Origin: a virus
Strand: one strand, 5' to 3'
Length of the DNA stretch: 24,570 bases
Virus record (IMG/VR): IMGVR_UViG_3300046559_001029
Span: 1-24,570 of that record
Shown here one piece after another: positions 1,244 to 22,811 of this stretch (within the stretch, counting starts at the first letter, position 1; every line of letters begins with the position of its first letter). The translations under genes were made by a program, and so were the position numbers. The notes beneath the pieces are model-generated. The model did not search any database, was not told the origin of the DNA, and saw only the letters and a program-made list of their open reading frames with translations.

Positions 1244-1260
1244 TTGGCACAGGTTTTGCA
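1244..1260 (+). promoter_or_regulatory. sigma-54 (RpoN) type -24/-12 promoter
   Basis: TTGGCAC at 1244-1250, a 5-nt spacer, then TTGCA at 1256-1260. The GG and GC dinucleotides are separated by exactly 10 nt, the invariant spacing of -24/-12 promoters. Transcription would start near 1271 and lead into the gene at 1326. It lies in the 136-nt gap between 1189 and 1326, correctly oriented. Sigma-54 promoters need an AAA+ activator, and none is seen in this window. Confidence 0.75.
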
Positions 1261-1325: not shown

Positions 1326-1613
1326 ATGCCCACGCTCGAGATTCCCAGTCAGGAACATGCCCAAACGAAGGTTGTAACCCTTAAGTGCTCCACCGGCAAG
1401 GGGGATGCGAAGAAGGAGCACGACTTCCAGGCGAAGATGCCGGCTTCTCTCGCTGACGCAATCGCGCTCGAGGGCGAGAAGGCAACGTTCAAGCGCTATC
1501 TCAATAGCCTGGCCATTGAGCTCCAGGGCACTGAGCGCGCGAAGCTCGCCCCTGAGGAAAAGAACGGTCCGGGTCGCAAGCGTGCCAGCTACCTGGAGGA
1601 GCTCGGGGTCTAA
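1326..1613 (+). CDS. hypothetical protein, 95 aa
   Basis: This is the first gene after the sigma-54-type promoter. ATG 1326 is preceded by AAAGGAG (1311-1317). The protein is soluble and charged, with a short beta-like start, a central helix rich in Ala and Glu, and a basic GPGRKR patch near the C-terminus before a short acidic helix. I recognise no family; the basic patch could contact nucleic acid. The stop overlaps the next start (TAATG), so the two genes are translationally coupled. Confidence 0.75.
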   Translation: MPTLEIPSQEHAQTKVVTLKCSTGKGDAKKEHDFQAKMPASLADAIALEGEKATFKRYLNSLAIELQGTERAKLAPEEKNGPGRKRASYLEELGV

Positions 1614-5493: not shown

Positions 5494-5632
5494 GCTATTC
5501 ATCTTCTTCCTTTTATCCTCATGCTCCCCTACAAACCCCTGGTGGATCAAGCATCCTAACTGTACAGTCGAATACGATACTAAAGCTAACATAGTCGCAT
5601 CCTATTGCGATCCAGATAAGGAACCTAAATGA
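5483..5632 (+). CDS. small lipoprotein, 49 aa
   Basis: ATG 5483 has GGAGG at 5472-5476 and a 6-nt spacer. The N-terminus is a short lipoprotein signal: K4, a hydrophobic run LFIFFLL, and lipobox LSSC with the modified Cys at residue 14. The mature part is only about 36 residues and contains two more Cys (PNC and SYC) that may form a disulfide in the periplasm. Phage lipoproteins of this size include outer-membrane spanin subunits and superinfection-exclusion lipoproteins such as T5 Llp; nothing here separates these. The stop overlaps the GroES start (ATGA). Confidence 0.65.
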   Translation: MASKLFIFFLLSSCSPTNPWWIKHPNCTVEYDTKANIVASYCDPDKEPK

Positions 5633-5937
5633 AATTCGAACCACTCGAAGATCGCATCCTCGTCCTCCCAGACACAGCCGATGAACAAAAAGGCTTAATC
5701 TACATTCCAGAAACCTACCGCAAGCGTCCACAGCTTGGAACGGTGATCGCTGCTCCAACTGGCATACGCAATCACGACGGTGACATGGTAGATCCCCTTG
5801 TCAAAGTCGGTGATCGGATTCTGTTCGCAAAATACACCGGAACAGAAATAAAGATTGAAGAGGTAGACTACATCATCATGCGCGAGGGCGATATCCTCGG
5901 GCGTTTACATGGAGAAACAGATGAAAAACTCGACTAG
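5629..5937 (+). CDS. groES: GroES-type co-chaperonin (Cpn10), 102 aa
   Basis: The sequence follows the Cpn10 fold from end to end. The N-terminal strand (FEPLEDRILVLP) leads into a mobile loop with hydrophobic GLIYIP in place of the usual GGIVL that docks into GroEL. Then come the GTVIAAPTG strand and the core VKVGDRILFAKYTGTEIKIEEVDYIIMREGDILGRL, matching host GroES. Length is close to the usual 95-100 residues. Phage GroES proteins replace the host lid so that GroEL can fold phage proteins, as T4 gp31 does for its capsid protein. AAGGAA lies 5 nt upstream of the ATG, and the gene is coupled to the lipoprotein gene before it. No GroEL gene is seen. Confidence 0.93.
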   Translation: MKFEPLEDRILVLPDTADEQKGLIYIPETYRKRPQLGTVIAAPTGIRNHDGDMVDPLVKVGDRILFAKYTGTEIKIEEVDYIIMREGDILGRLHGETDEKLD

Positions 5938-6717: not shown

Positions 6718-6732
6718 GTTCAAAAATTGAAC
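6718..6732. promoter_or_regulatory. 15-bp palindrome GTTCAAAAATTGAAC
   Basis: A perfect palindrome around a central A, ending directly at the ATG of the lipoprotein gene at 6733. It is adjacent to a second palindrome, AACGT-AA-ACGTT at 6709-6720. It shares the frame GTTCA-N5-TGAAC with 14770-14784 and nearly so with 23484-23498. A binding site for a repressor or activator is inferred. Confidence 0.55.
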
Positions 6733-6945
6733 ATGCGAAGTTTAGCTTTCGCGTTGCTTCTATCTGGCTGTTCGTTCTGCCACGCTCCGATGGTTCCACC
6801 GAATATACCCCCGGGCGTTGAAACTACAGCATTCATAGATCAGCATGAGGAATGCTGGACCTTTGATCTTCGCCCGGAGGCGATCCAGGTTTTAACCATC
6901 GCTGCGTCAGTAGCTAAAATGTTCGCAGGCTCAGGCGCGGATTAG
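6733..6945 (+). CDS. small lipoprotein, 70 aa
   Basis: The ATG 6733 start gives a clear lipoprotein signal: R2, a hydrophobic LAFALLL, and lipobox LSGC with the lipidated Cys at residue 13. A further C follows at once (SFC) and another at about residue 41. The mature protein is Pro-rich at first (PMVPPNIPPG), then acidic, then helical. No Shine-Dalgarno precedes it; the palindrome at 6718-6732 occupies that space, so translation may be weak or regulated. TTG 6727 is an alternative start. It is the second small lipoprotein around groES. A spanin or superinfection-exclusion role is possible. Confidence 0.6.
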   Translation: MRSLAFALLLSGCSFCHAPMVPPNIPPGVETTAFIDQHEECWTFDLRPEAIQVLTIAASVAKMFAGSGAD

Positions 6946-6962
6946 TTGGCACGCATATTGCA
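6946..6962 (+). promoter_or_regulatory. sigma-54 (RpoN) type -24/-12 promoter
   Basis: TTGGCAC at 6946-6952, 5 nt, TTGCA at 6958-6962, with GG and GC exactly 10 nt apart. It matches the promoter at 1244 at every consensus base. It occupies the only gap between the lipoprotein gene and the nuclease gene at 7004, and transcription would start near 6973. It would therefore drive the recombination and replication genes. Confidence 0.78.
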
Positions 6963-7003
6963 ATATGTCCTATAAAGCCACAACCCGTTGAGGAGGAAGT
7001 TGA

Positions 7004-7960
7004 ATGCGGCCAAAGCCACTACAGGATCTGATAGATCGCTGTAAACAGCAGGGCATAGACGTTATGAGCTCTAGCAGAGCTGATACATTTATGCTCTGCA
7101 AACGCAAGTACTATTACCGCTACGAGCTTGGCCTAACACCCGTTAGCCATGTCGAAGCCACAAACCATGCAACTGCTCTGAACTTCGGCTCTGCCCTTCA
7201 CGCCTCCCTCGCTACTCTCTATAATGGTAGCGCGTTCGAACCCTCCACTTGCCCCTGCCCATATGAACCTACGATCGGGTGTCTTCATTGCAAGGGTGAA
7301 AAGATGCCTCGCATCCTGGCTCAGTTCCTCATCCATTACCCGGATGATCCAACCGACGAGAAAGACCCCCGGACCCGTGATCGCGGAATGCAGATCCTCA
7401 TGGCTTACATCCGCAAATATCGGAACGAGCCATTTGAGGTCATAGCGGTTGAGATACCCTTTGCTCGAGAGTTTGAGGATTTTGTTTATGTTGGAATCCT
7501 CGATCTCTTGATCAAAGAAAACGGAAAGCCAAAGCCGCTTGACCATAAATCAGCCTCGCGCTTTGGCCAGCAGTTTATGAACCAGTTCAAACTCTCCGGC
7601 CAGATGACTGGTTACATTGATGCTGTTCAAGAAATCACCCACGAACCGTGTTCTGAGGGTGATATCAATGCTATCAGAACAACCACAAAAATCGACGATG
7701 ACAGCTTCGCGCGCCTAACCACCAGCAGAACCCCGGCCGATATCGAGGAATGGAAGCTTGAAACGAAAGCGATTCATGACGATATCAAGCGCTTACGCAC
7801 CGAAGGTTTCTGGCCTCGATCAGCACCGTTTGCTTGCAGCGCCTACAATCGTGAATGTGAGTTCTATCAGATCTGCACTGTTCAAGGTGCAAGCCGCGAG
7901 CAGGTTATAAAAAACGGTTACGATCGAGCCGATGCTGATGAGATAGAAAATCTGGATTAA
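7004..7960 (+). CDS. PD-(D/E)XK nuclease, Cas4/AddB-like with Fe-S cysteines, 318 aa
   Basis: The protein has the RecB-family nuclease order: SSSRADTFMLCKRKYYYRY at 22-40, FGSALHASL with the catalytic His at 66, E150, GILDLL with D167, and PLDHKS with D180 and K182 (the D-x-K pair), then QFKLSGQMTGY. Cys32 plus Cys278, Cys285 and Cys291 have the spacing of the 4Fe-4S cluster of Cas4 and AddB nucleases. An insertion at 83-96 (CPC...CLHC) adds a second possible metal site. Such nucleases resect DNA ends in phage recombination beside annealing or strand-exchange proteins, which fits the Sak4-like ATPase and SSB-like protein downstream. AGGAGGAAG at 6991-6999 supports ATG 7004. Confidence 0.85.
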   Translation: MRPKPLQDLIDRCKQQGIDVMSSSRADTFMLCKRKYYYRYELGLTPVSHVEATNHATALNFGSALHASLATLYNGSAFEPSTCPCPYEPTIGCLHCKGEKMPRILAQFLIHYPDDPTDEKDPRTRDRGMQILMAYIRKYRNEPFEVIAVEIPFAREFEDFVYVGILDLLIKENGKPKPLDHKSASRFGQQFMNQFKLSGQMTGYIDAVQEITHEPCSEGDINAIRTTTKIDDDSFARLTTSRTPADIEEWKLETKAIHDDIKRLRTEGFWPRSAPFACSAYNRECEFYQICTVQGASREQVIKNGYDRADADEIENLD

Positions 7961-8126: not shown

Positions 8127-8253
8127 GGATTTGAAGGATGATTTGGTGCGGCTGAAGGAGCCCGAGAGCCCAGATCTCGACCCTGACATGGAAGATCTCG
8201 AAGATGACGAGTTTGATGAGATCGACGAGGATGATGAGGAAGAAGAGGAATGA
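8113..8253 (+). CDS. extremely acidic small protein, 46 aa
   Basis: ATG 8113 lies inside the ribbon-helix-helix gene, with AGGA/AATAGG-like sequence upstream. Of 46 residues, 25 are Asp or Glu; the last 20 are almost uninterrupted acid. A short N-terminal helix (SYFRDLKDDLVRLKE) precedes the acidic tail. Phage proteins of this kind include DNA mimics that block restriction or nucleoid proteins; acidic tails also dock replication partners. The ATGA overlap with the ATPase gene suggests it works with that recombination set. Function is not shown by the sequence. Confidence 0.7.
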   Translation: MSYFRDLKDDLVRLKEPESPDLDPDMEDLEDDEFDEIDEDDEEEEE

Positions 8254-9056
8254 GCGAGCTAGCCCGAGCTGTTCCTTTAACCGAGGTTAAGGGAAACAAA
8301 AGCTATCTGTTCTATGGCCCGGGGGGAGCTGGGAAAACTTATCTAGCCTTTAAGCATCCTGGGAAGCGTAAGCTGATCATCGACATAGATCAGCGCGCTC
8401 ATGAACTTTTCCCACTTCTCACCCCCGATGAGCGATCCACCATAACCGTCTGGTCCCCTAACGAAACTCTGAATGAAACCGGAGTTTTCGTTGCCGAGGT
8501 TGATCCTAAGCGTGCCGATATGTCTAAAGGTACGCAGTTTAAAGTGGAACCTAAAGGCTATTATAAAATCGCAGCGGTTGTTAATGAGTTGCTTGCGATG
8601 CGAAAGCAAGAGTCATTTCCATATGATCTTGTGATCATGGATTCGCTCACTCGGATCATAGATCATTTGATCTACCTTGTGATGTATACTCATAAGGTAA
8701 CCAACATGACCCAAACGTTGTTCCAGGTGGAGGGGAGGAATGCAAAAGACCTTGTGCTGGGGTTCCTTGAGCTACCATGCGATCGTATCCTCATCGCGCA
8801 TTCGCATCATAAAGAGGTACGTGATAAAGACACAGGAGCGCTGGTCAAAGAGACGATCCGTCCACACGTTTTTGGCTCAGACTCGCTCCGTGAAGAATTG
8901 TCAACCTTGTTTAGTGAGGTCTATTATTTTCATGGATTCAATCCAAATACAAAAAAGTACCTCATTCAAACCGCGAATGACCGCATCCGCCCTGCTCGAA
9001 CTGCTAAGGGATTAGCGTTTGAACAGGAGGTAGAACCAACCAAAATCTTCGCATAA
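8250..9056 (+). CDS. Sak4-like P-loop ATPase (AAA_24 type), 268 aa
   Basis: Walker A is GPGGAGKT at 23-30. Walker B is LVIMD ending at D131, followed by S132. RecA-like features include IIDIDQRAHEL at 43-53 and a Gln/His-rich strand end (RILIAHSHHKEV). The size and order match the phage ATP-binding proteins annotated as Sak4 or AAA_24. These act as single-strand annealing or RecA-like recombinases and are usually found beside an SSB-like gene, as here. The ATGA overlap couples it to the acidic protein. An alternative is a helicase loader-like ATPase. Confidence 0.8.
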   Translation: MSELARAVPLTEVKGNKSYLFYGPGGAGKTYLAFKHPGKRKLIIDIDQRAHELFPLLTPDERSTITVWSPNETLNETGVFVAEVDPKRADMSKGTQFKVEPKGYYKIAAVVNELLAMRKQESFPYDLVIMDSLTRIIDHLIYLVMYTHKVTNMTQTLFQVEGRNAKDLVLGFLELPCDRILIAHSHHKEVRDKDTGALVKETIRPHVFGSDSLREELSTLFSEVYYFHGFNPNTKKYLIQTANDRIRPARTAKGLAFEQEVEPTKIFA

Positions 9057-9086: not shown

Positions 9087-9503
9087 ATGTCTGAAACCGA
9101 CGATCTCTTCGTTAACGTAAATCTGGATGACGTCGATGATGGCTTGGACCCAATGCCTGATGGTCCGACTATCTGCCGCGTTCACTCTCTCGCAAAAAAG
9201 CACAAGGAAGGCTCTGACTACGCATACATCGAGGTAGTCTTGAAGCCTGCCGCAGATGTCAACCCGGATCTGGAGACCTTCAAAAACCGGAATCTGTGGA
9301 TGAACATGTCCTTTAACCCAAAGGCTCTGTTCAACATGAAGGCCTTTGCTAAGGCATGTGGCCTGGCGTGGACTAAGCAAGGCGTCAACTGGGCCGAGGC
9401 ACGAGAGAAGCTCGTGAGTGTTAACCTTGGCACGGAGCCTGCGTTCAACAACCCTGAGCGCAAGGTTAACGTTGTCAAGATGCCTTACAACGCAGTTCGC
9501 TAG
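9087..9503 (+). CDS. single-stranded-DNA-binding-like protein (DUF669 type), 138 aa
   Basis: An acidic N-terminus (to about residue 25) is followed by an OB-like domain: GPTICRVHSLAKKHKEGSDYAYIEVVLKP, the KNRNLWMNMSFNPKAL strand and helix, then an FAKACGLAW helix and a final beta segment VSVNLGTEPAFNNPERKVNVVKM. This is the layout of DUF669-type SSB-like proteins that accompany Sak4 in phages. AAAGGAGA lies at 9076-9083. The role would be coating ssDNA for the ATPase upstream. Directly after the stop comes an intrinsic terminator. Confidence 0.72.
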   Translation: MSETDDLFVNVNLDDVDDGLDPMPDGPTICRVHSLAKKHKEGSDYAYIEVVLKPAADVNPDLETFKNRNLWMNMSFNPKALFNMKAFAKACGLAWTKQGVNWAEAREKLVSVNLGTEPAFNNPERKVNVVKMPYNAVR

Positions 9504-9573: not shown

Positions 9574-9744
9574 ATGAATGAGAAGCGTTACTTAGGCGAC
9601 GCAGTATATGCATGTTGGTCTAATTTTGGGGACCTTATGTTAACTACAGAAGATGGTATAAACGTAACTAACAAAATATATTTAGAGCCAGAAGTTCTCA
9701 ATAGCCTTATGAATTTTATAAAGGAGACCTCAAGTGCTCGTTGA
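9574..9744 (+). CDS. hypothetical protein, 56 aa
   Basis: The ATG at 9574 with GAGG at 9565-9568 is chosen; an in-frame GTG at 9532 lies inside the terminator loop. The sequence has a beta-rich start (YLGDAVYACWSNFGDLMLTTEDGINVTNKIYLEPEVLNSLMNFI). The DGI-x-VTNKIYLEPEVL segment recurs in small phage proteins of unknown function. It overlaps the ParB-methylase gene by 11 nt and supplies its ribosome-binding site (AAAGGAG). Confidence 0.7.
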   Translation: MNEKRYLGDAVYACWSNFGDLMLTTEDGINVTNKIYLEPEVLNSLMNFIKETSSAR

Positions 9745-11119
9745 GATCAAAAGCATCAAGGTCCGAAAAGACCGTCAGCGTAAAGACTTCGGTGATATCG
9801 AAGGTCTAGCCGCCAGCATCGGCCGCATAGGTTTGATTCATCCAATCGTACTCGACGGTGAAGGCTACCTTCTAACCGGCGGCCGTAGACTCGCGGCTCA
9901 TATCCACCTCGGCAAAACTCACATCGAGGCTTTACATCGAGAGGAAGCTGACTCGATCACGCTCCAAGAAATCGAGCTTGAAGAAAACCTCCGTCGCAAG
10001 GATCTGAACTGGGTTGAGGAAGTTAGAGCGCTTCGTAGAATCTTTGTGCTAAAGCGCGAACGCTATGGCTCTGACTTCCCGGGCGCAAAGAACTTCACCA
10101 TGCGCGACGCGAGCGAGGAACTCGACAAGGCAATCGGCGGCATCTCAATGGATCTGCAACTCGCAGACGCCTTGGACAAGTACCCAGATCTCGCTGATGA
10201 GCTGACCAAGAGCGCAGCGTGGAAGAGGTTCAAGCGTGAAGAAGAAACAAAGATCAGAACCGAACAGGCCCGTCGAACCCGTGGGGATATGGAGTCGGCC
10301 GCGGATAAAGTCGATCAGAAGCTTTCCACTAGCGCAGCTGCTAGCCCCGACAAAACCTCACGCGCGGCTGACATTCGCCGCATCACGTGGAAAGGCAAGG
10401 GTATCCTCTACCTAGCAAACAGCATTGATGTTCTCAGTATCTATGCTGAGAAGTCAATCGACTGCTTGGTGACAGATCCTCCATACGCCCTCGGGATGTT
10501 CAAGGAAGGTAACACAACCGGCAACTCGCGCCTCGCGGAAAACGCCGGCCACATGTACGACGATGACCCGGCCGAGATGCTTAACATGCTCGACCAGGTT
10601 TTCATGCATGCTGCGCGTTGTTTGAAGTCCGACGGTCATGCGTACATATTCTTCCACCACACCAAATACGAAGAAATGTACCTCATGATCCGCAAACACT
10701 TCGGAACCTGTGAGGAAACTCCCATTGTCTGGATCAAAAATACGCCCGGGATCGGCGATCCGAATCGAAGCTGGGTATATGCCTATGAACCTTGCCTGTT
10801 TGTTAACCGTGGACGAGGCTTGGTTAAACCACAGGCTTTTAACTATCTCAAGTATGACACTGTCCCTCCAGGCAAAAAGATTCACCCAACTCAGAAACCA
10901 GATCAGCTCCTCAGACATATCATTTCCGCCTCATGCGTCCCCGGAGAAGTGGTCCTTGATCCATTCGCAGGATCTGGATCAACTCTTGTGGCTGCTGCTC
11001 AAGTTGGATGCCGCTTTATCGGAATCGAGCGAGAGGAAAAGTTTCATCGAGCAGCAACAGAGCGAATCGCAGAAGAGCTAGCGGCTGGAGAGGGATCTGA
11101 CAATGCGTCTACAGGATGA
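9734..11119 (+). CDS. ParB-domain / DNA adenine-type methyltransferase fusion, 461 aa
   Basis: Residues 1-110 are a ParB/Spo0J-like N-terminal domain, with TGGRRLAAH (48-56) and ELEENLRRKDL (81-91) as its two signature motifs. Residues 220-450 are a DNA methyltransferase: DPPY (248-251, the catalytic motif of N6-adenine and some N4-cytosine enzymes), HPTQKP (384-389) and the SAM-binding DPFAGSGST (409-417). The DPPY-before-FxGxG order is the beta class. It would methylate phage or host DNA, perhaps for protection from restriction or for marking replicated DNA; no restriction enzyme is nearby. The GTG start is supported by AAAGGAG at 9720. The target sequence cannot be read from the protein. 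Confidence 0.88.
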   Translation: MLVEIKSIKVRKDRQRKDFGDIEGLAASIGRIGLIHPIVLDGEGYLLTGGRRLAAHIHLGKTHIEALHREEADSITLQEIELEENLRRKDLNWVEEVRALRRIFVLKRERYGSDFPGAKNFTMRDASEELDKAIGGISMDLQLADALDKYPDLADELTKSAAWKRFKREEETKIRTEQARRTRGDMESAADKVDQKLSTSAAASPDKTSRAADIRRITWKGKGILYLANSIDVLSIYAEKSIDCLVTDPPYALGMFKEGNTTGNSRLAENAGHMYDDDPAEMLNMLDQVFMHAARCLKSDGHAYIFFHHTKYEEMYLMIRKHFGTCEETPIVWIKNTPGIGDPNRSWVYAYEPCLFVNRGRGLVKPQAFNYLKYDTVPPGKKIHPTQKPDQLLRHIISASCVPGEVVLDPFAGSGSTLVAAAQVGCRFIGIEREEKFHRAATERIAEELAAGEGSDNASTG

Positions 11120-11294
11120 TACTATAGCAGTTCATCTAAAACCCTTAGAGATTGCGCTTATCATGGCGTATAGTAAAAACAAAAGTCAATCTCTATTTGA
11201 TCTTGAAGGCGAACAGTGGAATAACATATTCATCGCTATGGTAAAAGCTCTTGCTCCGGAGGGAACGAAACGTGCCCAACCTGGTGATGCCTGA
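11103..11294 (+). CDS. hypothetical protein, 63 aa
   Basis: ATG 11103 overlaps the methylase stop by 17 nt, with GAGAGGGA (11088-11095) upstream. The protein is a helical, mildly acidic 63-residue chain with SLFDLEGEQWNNIFIAMVKAL as the central helix. No family is recognised. Its 3' end overlaps the start of the polymerase gene by 23 nt and contains the polymerase ribosome-binding site. Confidence 0.65.
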   Translation: MRLQDDTIAVHLKPLEIALIMAYSKNKSQSLFDLEGEQWNNIFIAMVKALAPEGTKRAQPGDA

Positions 11295-13596
11295 TGGAGA
11301 CCCGAACTCAAAGATTGCAATTATTGGCGCGAGACCTGCATACGATGAAGTTAGATCTGGAAAGGCATATACTGGACCCACAGGACAAAAGCTCTGGCGA
11401 TGGCTTGGCATTCCCCGAAGCGAATGCTATGTGTCTAATGTTAGACGCGATTGGGCAGATCACGATGTATCTGAGCGAGAGCTTACAGAGGCACTTCCTA
11501 TTCTTAGAGAAGAACTCTCGCACATTAAACCAAACATCCTCATTACCCTTGGACCAGCAGCTCTCACAGCAGTCACCGGCAAGCGAGGCATCACAAACTG
11601 GCGAGGCTCGATCCTCGAATCAACCATTATCCCAGGTCTCAAAGTCTTGCCCACACTGCAACCGGCCTCTGCTGATACGACTTTCAGCCTTAGGTACGTA
11701 ATCGAACTCGATCTCAGGAAAGCACGCCGTGAATCTCAATATCCAGATATCAGGCGACCTCAGCGCACCTTCCACATTAACCCCCCGTTCGAGGAAGCGT
11801 GTTCAATTTTACGATCACTGGGCGCTACTATCTCTGTTGATATCGAAACTCTTGGGAACACGATCTCATGTATCGGTATCGCTGACAGTCCAAGTCGAGG
11901 AATCTGCATTGCCTTTGTTGGCGGACCTTATACAACAGATGAGCTCATTGCTCTCTGGCGCGAGCTGGACGTTGTCCTCAGAACCCGGGCATGTCGAGGC
12001 CAGAACTTCCAGTTCGACACCACACGCCTCGAACGCTACGGTTTCAAAATCAACAACATCGCCGATGACACCATGCTCAAGCACCATCTCCTCTGGACGG
12101 AACTTGGTTCTGGTGTCAAAAGGAAGCAAGGGGATAGAGGGATAGACTCGCTCACTGGGAAGCATTCGCTAGCTTTCATCAGCTCAATCTATACAGATGA
12201 GCCATACTATAAATACGAAGCAGACTCATGCTGGAACGATCCGGGTCTTGAGCTTGGCGAGCGCTTCCATCGGTATTGGACTTATAACCTTAAAGATTGC
12301 TTCGTTACCGAAGAATCCGGCCTGGCGATGGATAAAGAACTCATCCGCTTTAACCAGGTCGAATACTTCCGTGAACATGTCCTTGGCCTCATCAGACCCG
12401 TTATGCGGATGCAAGATCGTGGATTGTTCGTTGACCACACCGCGCTTTCTACAACATCCAAAAGAACAAAACTCGAGCAAGATGTGCTTCAACAACAGCT
12501 CGATCAAGCCGTAGGCTTCCACTGCAATGTAAAAAGCCCGGCAGACATCCGCTATGTGATCCAAGAGGTCTTACATGAAAAGCTCTCTAAGCTCACAAAA
12601 AAAGGCGCAATCTCAACAGACGAAGATACTATTCGAACACTCGCTTATCGAGGGGAACACACCGAGATTTATCGACTCATTTTGGATATCAGAGAACGTC
12701 GCACTCTTCTCTCAAACTTTCTCTCGCTTGAAACTGACGGCGGACGGTATAAGGCTTCATATCTCATTCATGGAACTGACTCCGGGCGTCTATCAAGTCG
12801 TGCTGTTGGGAAGGGACCCCAGCTTCAAAACATTCCAAAACCTACTCGAAAAATATTTAAGCCCGAGCCAGGAAATGTGTATGTTCAGGGTGACCTTGCA
12901 CGCGCAGAGGCAATGTACGTCGCCTACGACGCGCAGGAGCTTGAGCTCATCAAGCTCTTTGAAGATCCTACGCGTGATCTTTACCTCGAAACAGCGGCCC
13001 GAGCTCTTGGTCGATCTGTTGGAAAAGAATCTATAGAACGCATGGTTTTTAAGCAGGTGGTTCTAGGTTCGAACTACCTTATGGGACCTATGAAACTAGT
13101 GAGCGTCCTCGGGCTCAAAGGCATCGACATCATGAAACTCCCGGTGCCCGGGAACTCTCGGAAAGCTAAAGCGGTATATGTCCAAGATGGCTACTTCAAC
13201 CTATACCCTAGACTCCGGCGCTGGCAAGCAGAAATCGGACGTGAGATACGCGAAAATCGCTGTCTTGTTGATCCTTTTGGCCGTCGCCATATGTTCCTTG
13301 GCCGTCTTGATGACAGCTCTCTTGGTATTGCGCTTAGTCGCAAACCTCAGTCAACCATCGTCGGAATTACCAATAGAGCAATTAGGCTTCTGGATCAGCA
13401 AGGGCGTTATATTTGTGCCCAAGTTCATGACTCTATTCTAACCGAATGTAAACGCGCTCAGCGCGATGAAGAAGCAAACGCCATTCGCGAAGCCATGACT
13501 TGTCCCCTGAGCGTTCATGGCCGAACGATGACCATTCCGGTTGACCTACAGTGGTCAGATCAAAGTTGGGGGGATATGGTGACGTGGCAACCTTAG
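11272..13596 (+). CDS. family A DNA polymerase with N-terminal UDG-like and 3'-5' exonuclease domains, 774 aa
   Basis: GTG 11272 is chosen because CGGAGGGA (11257-11264) precedes it. Residues 13-150 are a uracil-DNA-glycosylase-like fold: IIGARPAYDEVRSGKAYTGP, the KPNILITLGPAAL strand, and VLPTLQPAS where a family-4 UDG has a HPS/HPA motif. Residues 185-345 are a DnaQ-type exonuclease: D190 and E192 (SVDIETLG), D249 (NFQFD), Y338 and D342 (YNLKD). The polymerase follows: SGRLSS (504-509), motif A GDLARAEA with D541 and E546, motif B R590-x3-K594-x3-L598-x3-Y602, and motif C QVHDS with D720. It replicates phage DNA. UDG-like domains fused to PolA have been found in other phages. The motif-B Leu and the lost UDG His are discussed in the findings. 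Confidence 0.92.
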   Translation: MPNLVMPDGDPNSKIAIIGARPAYDEVRSGKAYTGPTGQKLWRWLGIPRSECYVSNVRRDWADHDVSERELTEALPILREELSHIKPNILITLGPAALTAVTGKRGITNWRGSILESTIIPGLKVLPTLQPASADTTFSLRYVIELDLRKARRESQYPDIRRPQRTFHINPPFEEACSILRSLGATISVDIETLGNTISCIGIADSPSRGICIAFVGGPYTTDELIALWRELDVVLRTRACRGQNFQFDTTRLERYGFKINNIADDTMLKHHLLWTELGSGVKRKQGDRGIDSLTGKHSLAFISSIYTDEPYYKYEADSCWNDPGLELGERFHRYWTYNLKDCFVTEESGLAMDKELIRFNQVEYFREHVLGLIRPVMRMQDRGLFVDHTALSTTSKRTKLEQDVLQQQLDQAVGFHCNVKSPADIRYVIQEVLHEKLSKLTKKGAISTDEDTIRTLAYRGEHTEIYRLILDIRERRTLLSNFLSLETDGGRYKASYLIHGTDSGRLSSRAVGKGPQLQNIPKPTRKIFKPEPGNVYVQGDLARAEAMYVAYDAQELELIKLFEDPTRDLYLETAARALGRSVGKESIERMVFKQVVLGSNYLMGPMKLVSVLGLKGIDIMKLPVPGNSRKAKAVYVQDGYFNLYPRLRRWQAEIGREIRENRCLVDPFGRRHMFLGRLDDSSLGIALSRKPQSTIVGITNRAIRLLDQQGRYICAQVHDSILTECKRAQRDEEANAIREAMTCPLSVHGRTMTIPVDLQWSDQSWGDMVTWQP

Positions 13597-14762
13597 ATCG
13601 AGACTCGGATGAAAGCTTCATACACCAATATGTCAAATACACAAAGGATCAGGAAAGCCCTCTTATCTTCCACATGTGGACGGCGCTTACTATTCTGGGC
13701 GTTGCTATGGGTCGTAAATGTTTCATTGATCGTGGATTCTATACGATCTATCCCAATCTATTTACTATCCTCGTTGCTGGTAGTGCTCTTTGTCGCAAGT
13801 CTACTTCAATCAATCTTGGTTTACCTCTACTTGATGGAATTCCTGGCACTCTGGTCATCAATGGAAAAATGACCCCGGAGAAACTGACTCGTGAAATCGC
13901 CGAAGCACAAGTCCTCAATATCGAAACGGGAGAGATCCATTCCCCTAATTGCCTCATATTCAGTTCTGAACTCTCGGTCTTCCTCACAAAGCAAAGCTAC
14001 GGCGAACCGGTCATTCACTTGCTTACAGACCTATTCGACTGCCCGACAAAACGCGAATTCAAAACGAAGAATAAAGGCTCAGATACACTGCACAATGTTT
14101 TTATTTCAATCCTTGCTGCCACAACACCTGACGGCGTGGCAAAGGGAATTCCTGAATCAGCACTTCAGGAAGGTTTTGCTTCTAGAATTATGTTCCCGTT
14201 CTCTGCTTCAACAGATCGAGCTAATGCATTCCCTGAGCTCAGCGAGCAAGATTTGCATTGGCTTCAGACTGCCAAAGCTACACTGACAAAGTGTTCACTT
14301 CTAAAAGGAAAATTTACCTTTAGCCTCGAAGCCCGGGAATGGTATAAATCCTGGTACGAGGACGTCCATAGAAAAAGCCAGCCGCGTGATAGACGCTTAG
14401 CTGGCTTTCATGGCCGGAAGCATGACCACGTTTCTCGCGTCGGCATGCTTATGGCAGGCTCTTTCCAACAACAGGAGATCTTAGTCGGTGACCTCGAAGC
14501 GGCGCTTATGGCTGTCGAAGATGTCGAGACTGCCGCTATGGGCGCCTTTCAGGAAATTGGCGCGACCGTTGCGTCGCAGCATTATGGTAGATTCAAAGCC
14601 TTTATGCGATCATACAAGCGAATCGCATACAGCCTGCTCCTTAAACTCATGTACCCCTGCACAGCACAAGAGTTCAAAGTCCTCCTCGAAACAGCGATCT
14701 TAAGCGGTATGGTCACACGCGATGACACTGATCCCAAGATGCTCCTATGGCTTGGGGATTAA
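13584..14762 (+). CDS. DUF3987-type helicase/ATPase, 392 aa
   Basis: The GTG at 13584 is chosen with GGGGGG at 13568-13573 upstream; the in-frame ATG 13551 would add 11 residues and lacks a ribosome-binding site. The N-terminal SPLIFHMWTALTILGVAMGRK leads into a P-loop GSALCRKST (66-74) with the nucleotide-binding Lys72, and an acidic strand LIFSSEL (124-130). Later segments (ISILAATTPDGVAKGIPESALQEGFASRIMF) match DUF3987 proteins, the helicase-like half of phage primase-helicases. The primase domain that often precedes DUF3987 is absent, so this works alone or with a separate primase. It overlaps the polymerase stop by 13 nt, consistent with a replication operon. Confidence 0.78.
   Translation: MATLDRDSDESFIHQYVKYTKDQESPLIFHMWTALTILGVAMGRKCFIDRGFYTIYPNLFTILVAGSALCRKSTSINLGLPLLDGIPGTLVINGKMTPEKLTREIAEAQVLNIETGEIHSPNCLIFSSELSVFLTKQSYGEPVIHLLTDLFDCPTKREFKTKNKGSDTLHNVFISILAATTPDGVAKGIPESALQEGFASRIMFPFSASTDRANAFPELSEQDLHWLQTAKATLTKCSLLKGKFTFSLEAREWYKSWYEDVHRKSQPRDRRLAGFHGRKHDHVSRVGMLMAGSFQQQEILVGDLEAALMAVEDVETAAMGAFQEIGATVASQHYGRFKAFMRSYKRIAYSLLLKLMYPCTAQEFKVLLETAILSGMVTRDDTDPKMLLWLGD
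14374..14408 (+). other. 35-nt perfect two-part hairpin inside the helicase gene
   Basis: AAAGCCAGC (14374-14382) pairs perfectly with GCTGGCTTT (14400-14408). Inside it GCGT (14384-14387) pairs with ACGC (14393-14396). The nine-base arm AAAGCCAGC recurs at 14821-14829 in a second hairpin. It lies in coding sequence, so chance is possible; no T-tract follows. Confidence 0.4.
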
Positions 14763-21212: not shown

Positions 21213-22811
21213 TCAGGCAGTAACTGTTCCGAGGAAATCTCCGATCGGGAGGTACTCGCACATATAGGACCGCCATCGGAAGAACCCGGTTGCGTTGTTT
21301 TCTCTGAATCTGTATCGGACGACGTTACCTGATTTGGTAAATTCGACAAATGAGTATCCCTGTGTAGTTGGCGTTATCTGCTTGGTAGTCCATGTCTTGC
21401 CTCGATCGAAGCTGACACCTACCTCGAAAGGTTCCTTGCTCGCGTATTCGTAGTTTAGCAGAAGTCTAACTGACTGAGCATTATCCCATGGAGTGTCGAT
21501 ATACATATCCTCGGTTTCGAGAACTCGATCGACAATCGAACCCTGACTGAAGTAGTCCCATGAGATAGTCTCATTTATATCCATCGTTACAGAATCTGTT
21601 CGCCCGGCAATGACCTCTGTTGTGGTCGCTGCAAACAAATCTGCCCAGGGGATATTCCAGTCTGTCCAGACTCCCGGTATCGTATTCCAGGTATATTCGA
21701 ACAACGGGACTTCAATTTCCCCAATAGTATATATATTAGGAAAAACATCCCGAGTCCAGTAATTCCTAAAATAGTCGTAAATGAAAACATCAAACGATCC
21801 TCGATCTGAGTCACAAAGTATAAGCCAGTATTCGTAACGAGAAAGAGAACAAAAGCCGAAATATTGGTTGAATGTGCTGCGATAGCTTAGAGACTTAAGC
21901 TCCTCATGAATCGGTTCCCCGATCGGCGTCGGCTTATTTCCATCCCACATCCAGACGTTTTGATCGTCTGCCAAAAAGAAGTGAGCTGTGCCGCTTGAAG
22001 CTAACGTCCCAGGCGCGCCTACGCCTACGCCACGGAATCTAACCTGATGGATAAATGTGGGAGAGAGTGTTCCAGTTGGAGTTAAATCTCCAATAGAATT
22101 TCGCTTATAGACTATACAACGATCATCTAGAGCTTTAACCCCTCTGATAGCCTCAGCGCCTTCTTCGTTCAGATCCATGAACCCAGCGCCGAGCTGCTGA
22201 GTCTCATTCCACTTTCTGAAATCTCCGTTGTAGGGCCACCTGAGTCTATTTGCAAGAATCGTGCCACCCTCGGTCACATTGCCTAAGAGCACACGCCCAT
22301 TGAAGTACTCGAGAAACCTAGCTGTAGGAGCATGCGCCGGGTTAGCGCCCGTTCCCTCGAAGCCTGCAACTGACGAGATCATATCGAATGGATGAGTTGT
22401 GTCACCATCCCAATATGCGATCTCATCTGCGCTGTTAGAGAAAAAGAACTTATCTTCCCCAACACAAAATCCCCAGCGGTGAAAGATAGTTGGGGTGAAT
22501 GTTCCGTTGATCTTGGTCCAGTTACGAGAGTCACCTGGAGATAGATTTCCTAAACGAAATAACTTGTTATCTGTCAAAAGTAGCGGCCAGATAGTTCCAT
22601 TAGACATGGAGAAGTTGGTTATGGCAAGAGCCTTCTGGCCCGCTACATCCCCATCAAACAGCGATCTCCCAGGCGTTGGCCTAACCTCACCGAATCTAAA
22701 TCTAACGTTAACTGCATTTGGCGAGTAGTCCTGACCTATCATATCCGCGGGCCAGGCCGTGCGCCTGCCTTTTAGCGGCATAGGTTTCTGGATACGCTTG
22801 GGAGTTGCCAT
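21213..22811 (-). CDS. beta-rich tail nozzle / stabilisation protein, 532 aa
   Basis: The chain is nearly all beta: repeated short strands such as FRLGNLSPGDSRNWTKINGTFTPTIFHRW and FCVGEDKFFFSNSADEIAYWDGD, with WDGN/WDGD repeats typical of beta-propeller blades. This recalls phage nozzle and DNA-stabilisation proteins (P22 gp10, T7 gp12). The PMPLKGRRTAWPADMIGQDYSPNAVNVRF start is also typical of that group. Its TAATG overlap with the gene upstream couples the two; no strong ribosome-binding site is present. An exact sigma-54 promoter match lies inside the gene. It would plug the tail and hold packaged DNA. Confidence 0.72.
   Translation of the reverse strand: MATPKRIQKPMPLKGRRTAWPADMIGQDYSPNAVNVRFRFGEVRPTPGRSLFDGDVAGQKALAITNFSMSNGTIWPLLLTDNKLFRLGNLSPGDSRNWTKINGTFTPTIFHRWGFCVGEDKFFFSNSADEIAYWDGDTTHPFDMISSVAGFEGTGANPAHAPTARFLEYFNGRVLLGNVTEGGTILANRLRWPYNGDFRKWNETQQLGAGFMDLNEEGAEAIRGVKALDDRCIVYKRNSIGDLTPTGTLSPTFIHQVRFRGVGVGAPGTLASSGTAHFFLADDQNVWMWDGNKPTPIGEPIHEELKSLSYRSTFNQYFGFCSLSRYEYWLILCDSDRGSFDVFIYDYFRNYWTRDVFPNIYTIGEIEVPLFEYTWNTIPGVWTDWNIPWADLFAATTTEVIAGRTDSVTMDINETISWDYFSQGSIVDRVLETEDMYIDTPWDNAQSVRLLLNYEYASKEPFEVGVSFDRGKTWTTKQITPTTQGYSFVEFTKSGNVVRYRFRENNATGFFRWRSYMCEYLPIGDFLGTVTA
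22251..22266 (-). promoter_or_regulatory. intragenic sigma-54-type match on the minus strand
   Basis: Read on the minus strand: TGGCAC, 5 nt, TTGCA, with GG and GC exactly 10 nt apart. It lies inside the nozzle gene and points toward the GNAT and ejection genes. The position in coding sequence makes it weaker than the two intergenic matches at 1244 and 6946. Confidence 0.4.

Follow-up and report, generated by a model that had tools for sequence, protein, structure and literature searches.

The sequence at positions 6946–6962 of the window, by which we mean the whole 24,570-base stretch of viral DNA analysed here, an IMG/VR virus record, raises the question of whether a phage places its recombination and replication genes behind a promoter for the alternative sigma factor of its host, sigma-54 (RpoN). 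RNA polymerase carrying sigma-54 cannot initiate alone and requires an ATP-driven AAA+ enhancer-binding protein that answers a cellular signal. If the promoter is genuine, phage growth would be coupled to the physiology of the host by a defined switch that awaits a host signal. To simplify the presentation below, we will refer to this sequence as site 2.

6946–6962, plus strand: site 2, predicted sigma-54-type promoter (TTGGCACGCATATTGCA), from sequence and geometry

The −24 element of site 2 reads TGGCACG and its −12 element TTGCA, with the GG at 6948–6949 and the GC at 6960–6961, so that the two dinucleotides have the 10 bp between them that is characteristic of −24/−12 promoters. Compared with the extended consensus TGGCACG-N4-TTGCW, site 2 matches at 12/12 positions, both invariant dinucleotides being present. 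A short ORF ends with its stop codon (6943–6945) immediately before the site, which lies in an intergenic gap of 58 nt and is followed by an A/T-rich stretch and then, at the usual distance, by a start codon. This is the ATG of a nuclease gene at 7004, 41 nt beyond the site, and the exact intergenic copy that the original prediction had placed before this gene is there. As sigma-54 transcripts start about 19 bp past the motif centre (PMC4591121), this geometry predicts a transcript start near 6973. No consensus match to an IHF site was found near site 2.

The genes behind site 2 are as follows.

7004–7960, plus strand: PD-(D/E)XK nuclease, the first gene behind site 2 (PF12705, 8e-19; phrog_1218 exonuclease, 1e-22)
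8250–9056, plus strand: Sak4-like ssDNA annealing protein / AAA_24 ATPase (phrog_124; PF13479)
9087–9503, plus strand: 138-aa protein, no family match; similar short ORFs in the same block of 4 relatives
9734–11119, plus strand: ParB N-terminal domain fused to an N6/N4 DNA methylase (profile matches)
11251–13596, plus strand: DNA polymerase family A with an N-terminal uracil-DNA glycosylase domain (PF00476, PF03167; phrog_17)
13551–14762, plus strand: DUF3987 primase/helicase-like protein (PF13148; phrog_14296)

These form one same-strand block from the nuclease to the DUF3987 protein, and their earlier description as recombination and replication genes is right. A GAGGAGG ribosome-binding sequence lies just 5' of the nuclease ATG, and the 138-aa protein may, from its position, be SSB-like. 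Structural genes have the opposite orientation from about 14.9 kb on, and complete relatives of 40–44 kb, among them Desulfofustis phage LS06-2018-MD01 and Microcystis phage Mel-JY34, share this layout. One contig, L001 (18,774 bases), has an identical overlap with the window and continues for about 2.8 kb beyond its right-hand end; besides this contig, searches of IMG/VR with the nuclease, polymerase and structural protein gave no near relatives, and at megablast sensitivity the INPHARED collection gave no DNA match to the window. Elsewhere, the window encodes a GroES co-chaperonin (PF00166) at 5629–5937, and the segment 3001–5500 has a GC content of 61–66%, against about 49% for the genome, with positive skew, and is probably a mosaic insertion.

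Three exact copies of the 11-base pattern TGGCAC-N5-TTGCA are present in the window, at 1245–1260 (+), 6947–6962 (+) and 22251–22266 (−), compared with 0.007 expected on both strands under an order-2 Markov model of the window. The Poisson probability is 2.6e-5 for at least two copies and 6e-8 for at least three. The original prediction had put the chance expectation at about 0.01 copies per window, which agrees with the Markov estimate, and had argued that two well-placed copies are hard to ascribe to chance, which the probability for at least two copies bears out; both of the exact copies that it reported are present, although its count falls short in that the third was overlooked. When up to two mismatches are allowed, there is a mild excess (12 in the window against 6.6 expected), and the signal therefore resides in the near-perfect copies. 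The other two copies, and the gene behind the first of them, are as follows.

1245–1260, plus strand: site 1, predicted sigma-54-type promoter (TGGCACAGGTTTTGCA), 65 nt before the ATG at 1326
1326–1613, plus strand: 95-aa gene, the first behind site 1, no Pfam match
22251–22266, minus strand: third exact copy (TGGCACGATTCTTGCA), inside a 532-aa structural gene

Site 1 matches the extended consensus at 11/12 positions and would serve the preceding early block; read-through from it could also express the nuclease and replication block. The third copy is on the sense strand of the 532-aa gene, with the next same-strand start (21349) about 0.9 kb on, and is possibly an intragenic promoter. A chance match, or a poised binding site that plays no part in infection, could apply to this third copy, but as an account of site 2 we consider it most improbable in view of the expected number of exact copies and because two of the three are rightly placed and oriented.

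Sites 1 and 2 both start with TTGGCA, and each might instead belong to an ordinary sigma-70-type promoter in which this hexamer is a −35 element that overlaps the −24-like sequence by coincidence. At site 1 it is followed 16 nt on by TATCCT, giving 9/12 matches. However, site 2 lacks a good −10 element at 16–18 nt past TTGGCA, with a TATAAA starting about 24 nt past it, and sigma-70-like sites are in no clear excess in the window (15 against 10.5 expected). Moreover, the relatives described below fix TTGC at the sigma-54 spacing, and we regard a sigma-70 promoter as distinctly unlikely.

Comparison with relatives spans considerable distances, as the polymerases of distant relatives are about 26–33% identical to that of the window, and six aligned nuclease orthologues are about 21–28% identical to the window protein. 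There is no exact site in most of 50 longer family records. Five contigs (L040, L043, L047, L056 and L111) form a clade, with polymerases about 28% identical to that of the window, that carries TGGCA[CT]G-N4-TTGC[AT] 46–49 nt before the first early gene; in L056 the −24 and −12 elements are kept and the bases 3' of the site have diverged. A further relative, L017, has CGGCACGTAGATTGCA 40 nt before a gene upstream of its nuclease. The original prediction had named absence of the pattern upstream of the same genes in relatives as evidence against it, and this is borne out in part, as the site is not conserved directly 5' of the nuclease orthologues in about 47 relatives, although these are very distant and another clade has such a site at its first early gene instead. 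Putative sigma-54 sites are common to some lineages of the family, without one fixed position.

The strongest family-level test of the sigma-54 reading is a spacing control. Across about 1.6 Mb of sequence from the window, its relatives and related phages, noncoding positions ahead of a gene hold 6 sites with 11/12 or more matches at the sigma-54 spacing, compared with 0–1 at each of 11 other spacings (0 at eight and 1 at three). Noncoding status, here and in the collection scan below, was assigned by a home-made ORF caller in place of a trained gene finder; it treats real and control sites alike, and single placements may err in either direction: inspection puts one of the six, in L048, inside a gene, and two genuine gene-upstream sites, at 1245 in the window and in L047, were skipped by the crude caller. 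At a threshold of 10/12 the contrast is weaker, with 9 at the sigma-54 spacing against 0–7 elsewhere; the family counts were made at both thresholds and with two caller versions. Enrichment in the intergenic gaps of relatives, which had been suggested as a check, is found as a spacing-specific excess in promoter-like places.

A similar preference is apparent among the matches listed in a scan of IMG/VR. For TTGGCACG-N4-TTGCAA, 53 of the 131 matches listed (in 119 stretches) are noncoding, compared with 11 of the 120 listed for the off-by-one N5 control (Fisher P 5e-9; 7e-8 with duplicates removed), where the contigs matched may partly hold host DNA and not all matches need be viral genes. Several records carry many sites. 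The 217-kb record G074 (IMGVR_UViG_3300021399_000099) has 40 exact copies of TGGCAC-N5-TTGC, and G089, G095 and G078 have 10, 10 and 9 respectively, with the backward-read control giving 0 in each of the four. Between 28 and 62 kb of G074, a span of 34 kb, there are 33 plus-strand sites and 0 on that strand at the other spacings from 0 to 13, and this set looks like a sigma-54-type regulon. A TATAGTATAG-like element is seen after most of the G074 sites (loci L341 and L342).

In other records the arrangement is different. Sigma-54-like elements occur in noncoding DNA as tail-to-tail dyads (L211, L104) and in tandem every 26–29 bp (L128, L144), and these could be a decoy array or the sites of a different binding protein. 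Such layouts, unlike those of ordinary promoters, lend some weight to the idea that site 2 too is the target of another phage or host protein, for example a replication or packaging element or a repressor site, that resembles the sigma-54 consensus. The same may be said of the five-contig clade, in which the site closes an origin-like region of iterated repeats and AT-rich tracts. At L043 2450–2960, and at the same place in L040, L047, L056 and L111, copies of TAAGTYYAATAAAAACAAYRACTTA recur every 64–75 bp or so together with these tracts directly 5' of the sigma-54-like site, and they may mark either an origin of replication or binding sites for an activator. However, the copies in the window and in this clade are single, face genes and lie 41–65 nt before a start codon, and we think a site for some other protein unlikely, with the sigma-54-type promoter remaining our preferred reading.

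Such a promoter would require an activator. Searches of 50 family records for the Sigma54_activat domain (PF00158) gave weak AAA matches only, one of them, in a relative, just over the cut-off, and searches of 49 records for RpoN (PF04552), among which L001 and L043 are the only ones of this family, gave no match. Two over-cut-off matches among the wider hits look, on one reading, like ClpB-type AAA proteins. Because the phage DNA searched yielded no activator or sigma-54 gene, with the window and L001 together representing roughly half the length of a typical family genome, we infer that the activator is a host protein, which is a simpler reading than a phage-encoded one. As to the host itself, only five relatives were found in genome bins, and the bins are unrelated and uninformative.

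A candidate site for an activator or other regulator lies upstream of site 2, and a similar dyad lies upstream of site 1.

6718–6732, no strand assigned: palindrome GTTCAA-N3-TTGAAC, about 214 nt 5' of site 2, candidate activator or regulator site
1210–1232, no strand assigned: inverted repeat GTTCAAA-N9-TTTGAAC, 12 nt 5' of site 1, with a further half-site at 1274

The pattern GTTCAA-N(0–14)-TTGAAC occurs only at these two places in the window, 5' of sites 1 and 2, compared with 0.05 expected, although this expectation is to be discounted because the pattern was chosen post hoc, the dyad having been seen before it was counted.

Because of the sequence and geometry of site 2, the excess over chance, the conservation within lineages elsewhere in the family and the collection-wide noncoding enrichment, we propose that 6946–6962 is probably a sigma-54 (RpoN)-type −24/−12 promoter that would be used by host sigma-54 with an AAA+ activator, presumably also of the host, and would serve the nuclease and replication block. 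From these observations we infer sigma-54 binding, the position of the start site, the activator and a role in timing. In this model, host RNA polymerase with host sigma-54 would wait at 6946–6962 as a closed complex until an AAA+ enhancer-binding protein remodelled it, with initiation near 6973. The transcript would cover the nuclease and then, by read-through, the recombination and replication block to about 14.8 kb, and a host activator would make the genes of the block responsive to a host signal. A role for host sigma-54 activity in timing phage replication is plausible and fits the anatomy of the locus. The claim of a sigma-54 promoter in control of this block is supported in part, in its exact −24/−12 geometry, in the identity of the block and in the presence of sites in relatives, but not in conservation before the nuclease orthologues.

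More tentatively, and with slightly less than even confidence, we suggest that many, mostly undescribed, uncultured phages rely on host sigma-54 for part of their gene expression. In some this would involve a regulon of dozens of sites, as with the 40 in the 217-kb record, and in the family of the window it would involve the early and replication block, with infection responding, by way of a host enhancer-binding protein, to a signal of stress or nutrient supply in the host. The spacing-controlled enrichment makes the question of which phages depend on host RpoN both testable and countable.

In the open literature, with most subscription journals outside its scope, our search found no direct description of phage sigma-54 promoters. 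There is nevertheless a precedent in the record of Pseudomonas phage YuA (Yuavirus, NC_010116), which lists promoters that have reporter activity and a '-24/-12 consensus sequence'. This implies that YuA uses host sigma-54, and phage use of sigma-54 is therefore already known in kind. What is new is a near-perfect site before a recombination and replication block in an uncultured phage family, along with an indication, controlled for spacing, that uncultured viruses commonly carry such sites. The YuA promoters are at structural genes, whereas the two near-perfect gene-upstream sites of the window precede genes of the early and replication side, and the annotated YuA promoter stretches are poor matches to the consensus, unlike the sites in the window. 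In the window, the exact copy at 22251 (−), a possible promoter, lies inside a structural gene and on its sense strand. Bacterial sigma-54 promoters have the same TGGCACG-N4-TTGCA sequence as site 2, with GG and GC 10 bp apart, but site 2 is situated in a phage genome before recombination and replication genes, and its enhancer is only a candidate. Within the family, the five-contig clade has the same site and spacing upstream of the first gene of its early block, although the downstream gene is a different one and TAAGTYYAATAAAAACAAYRACTTA repeats take the place of the GTTCAA/TTGAAC dyads.
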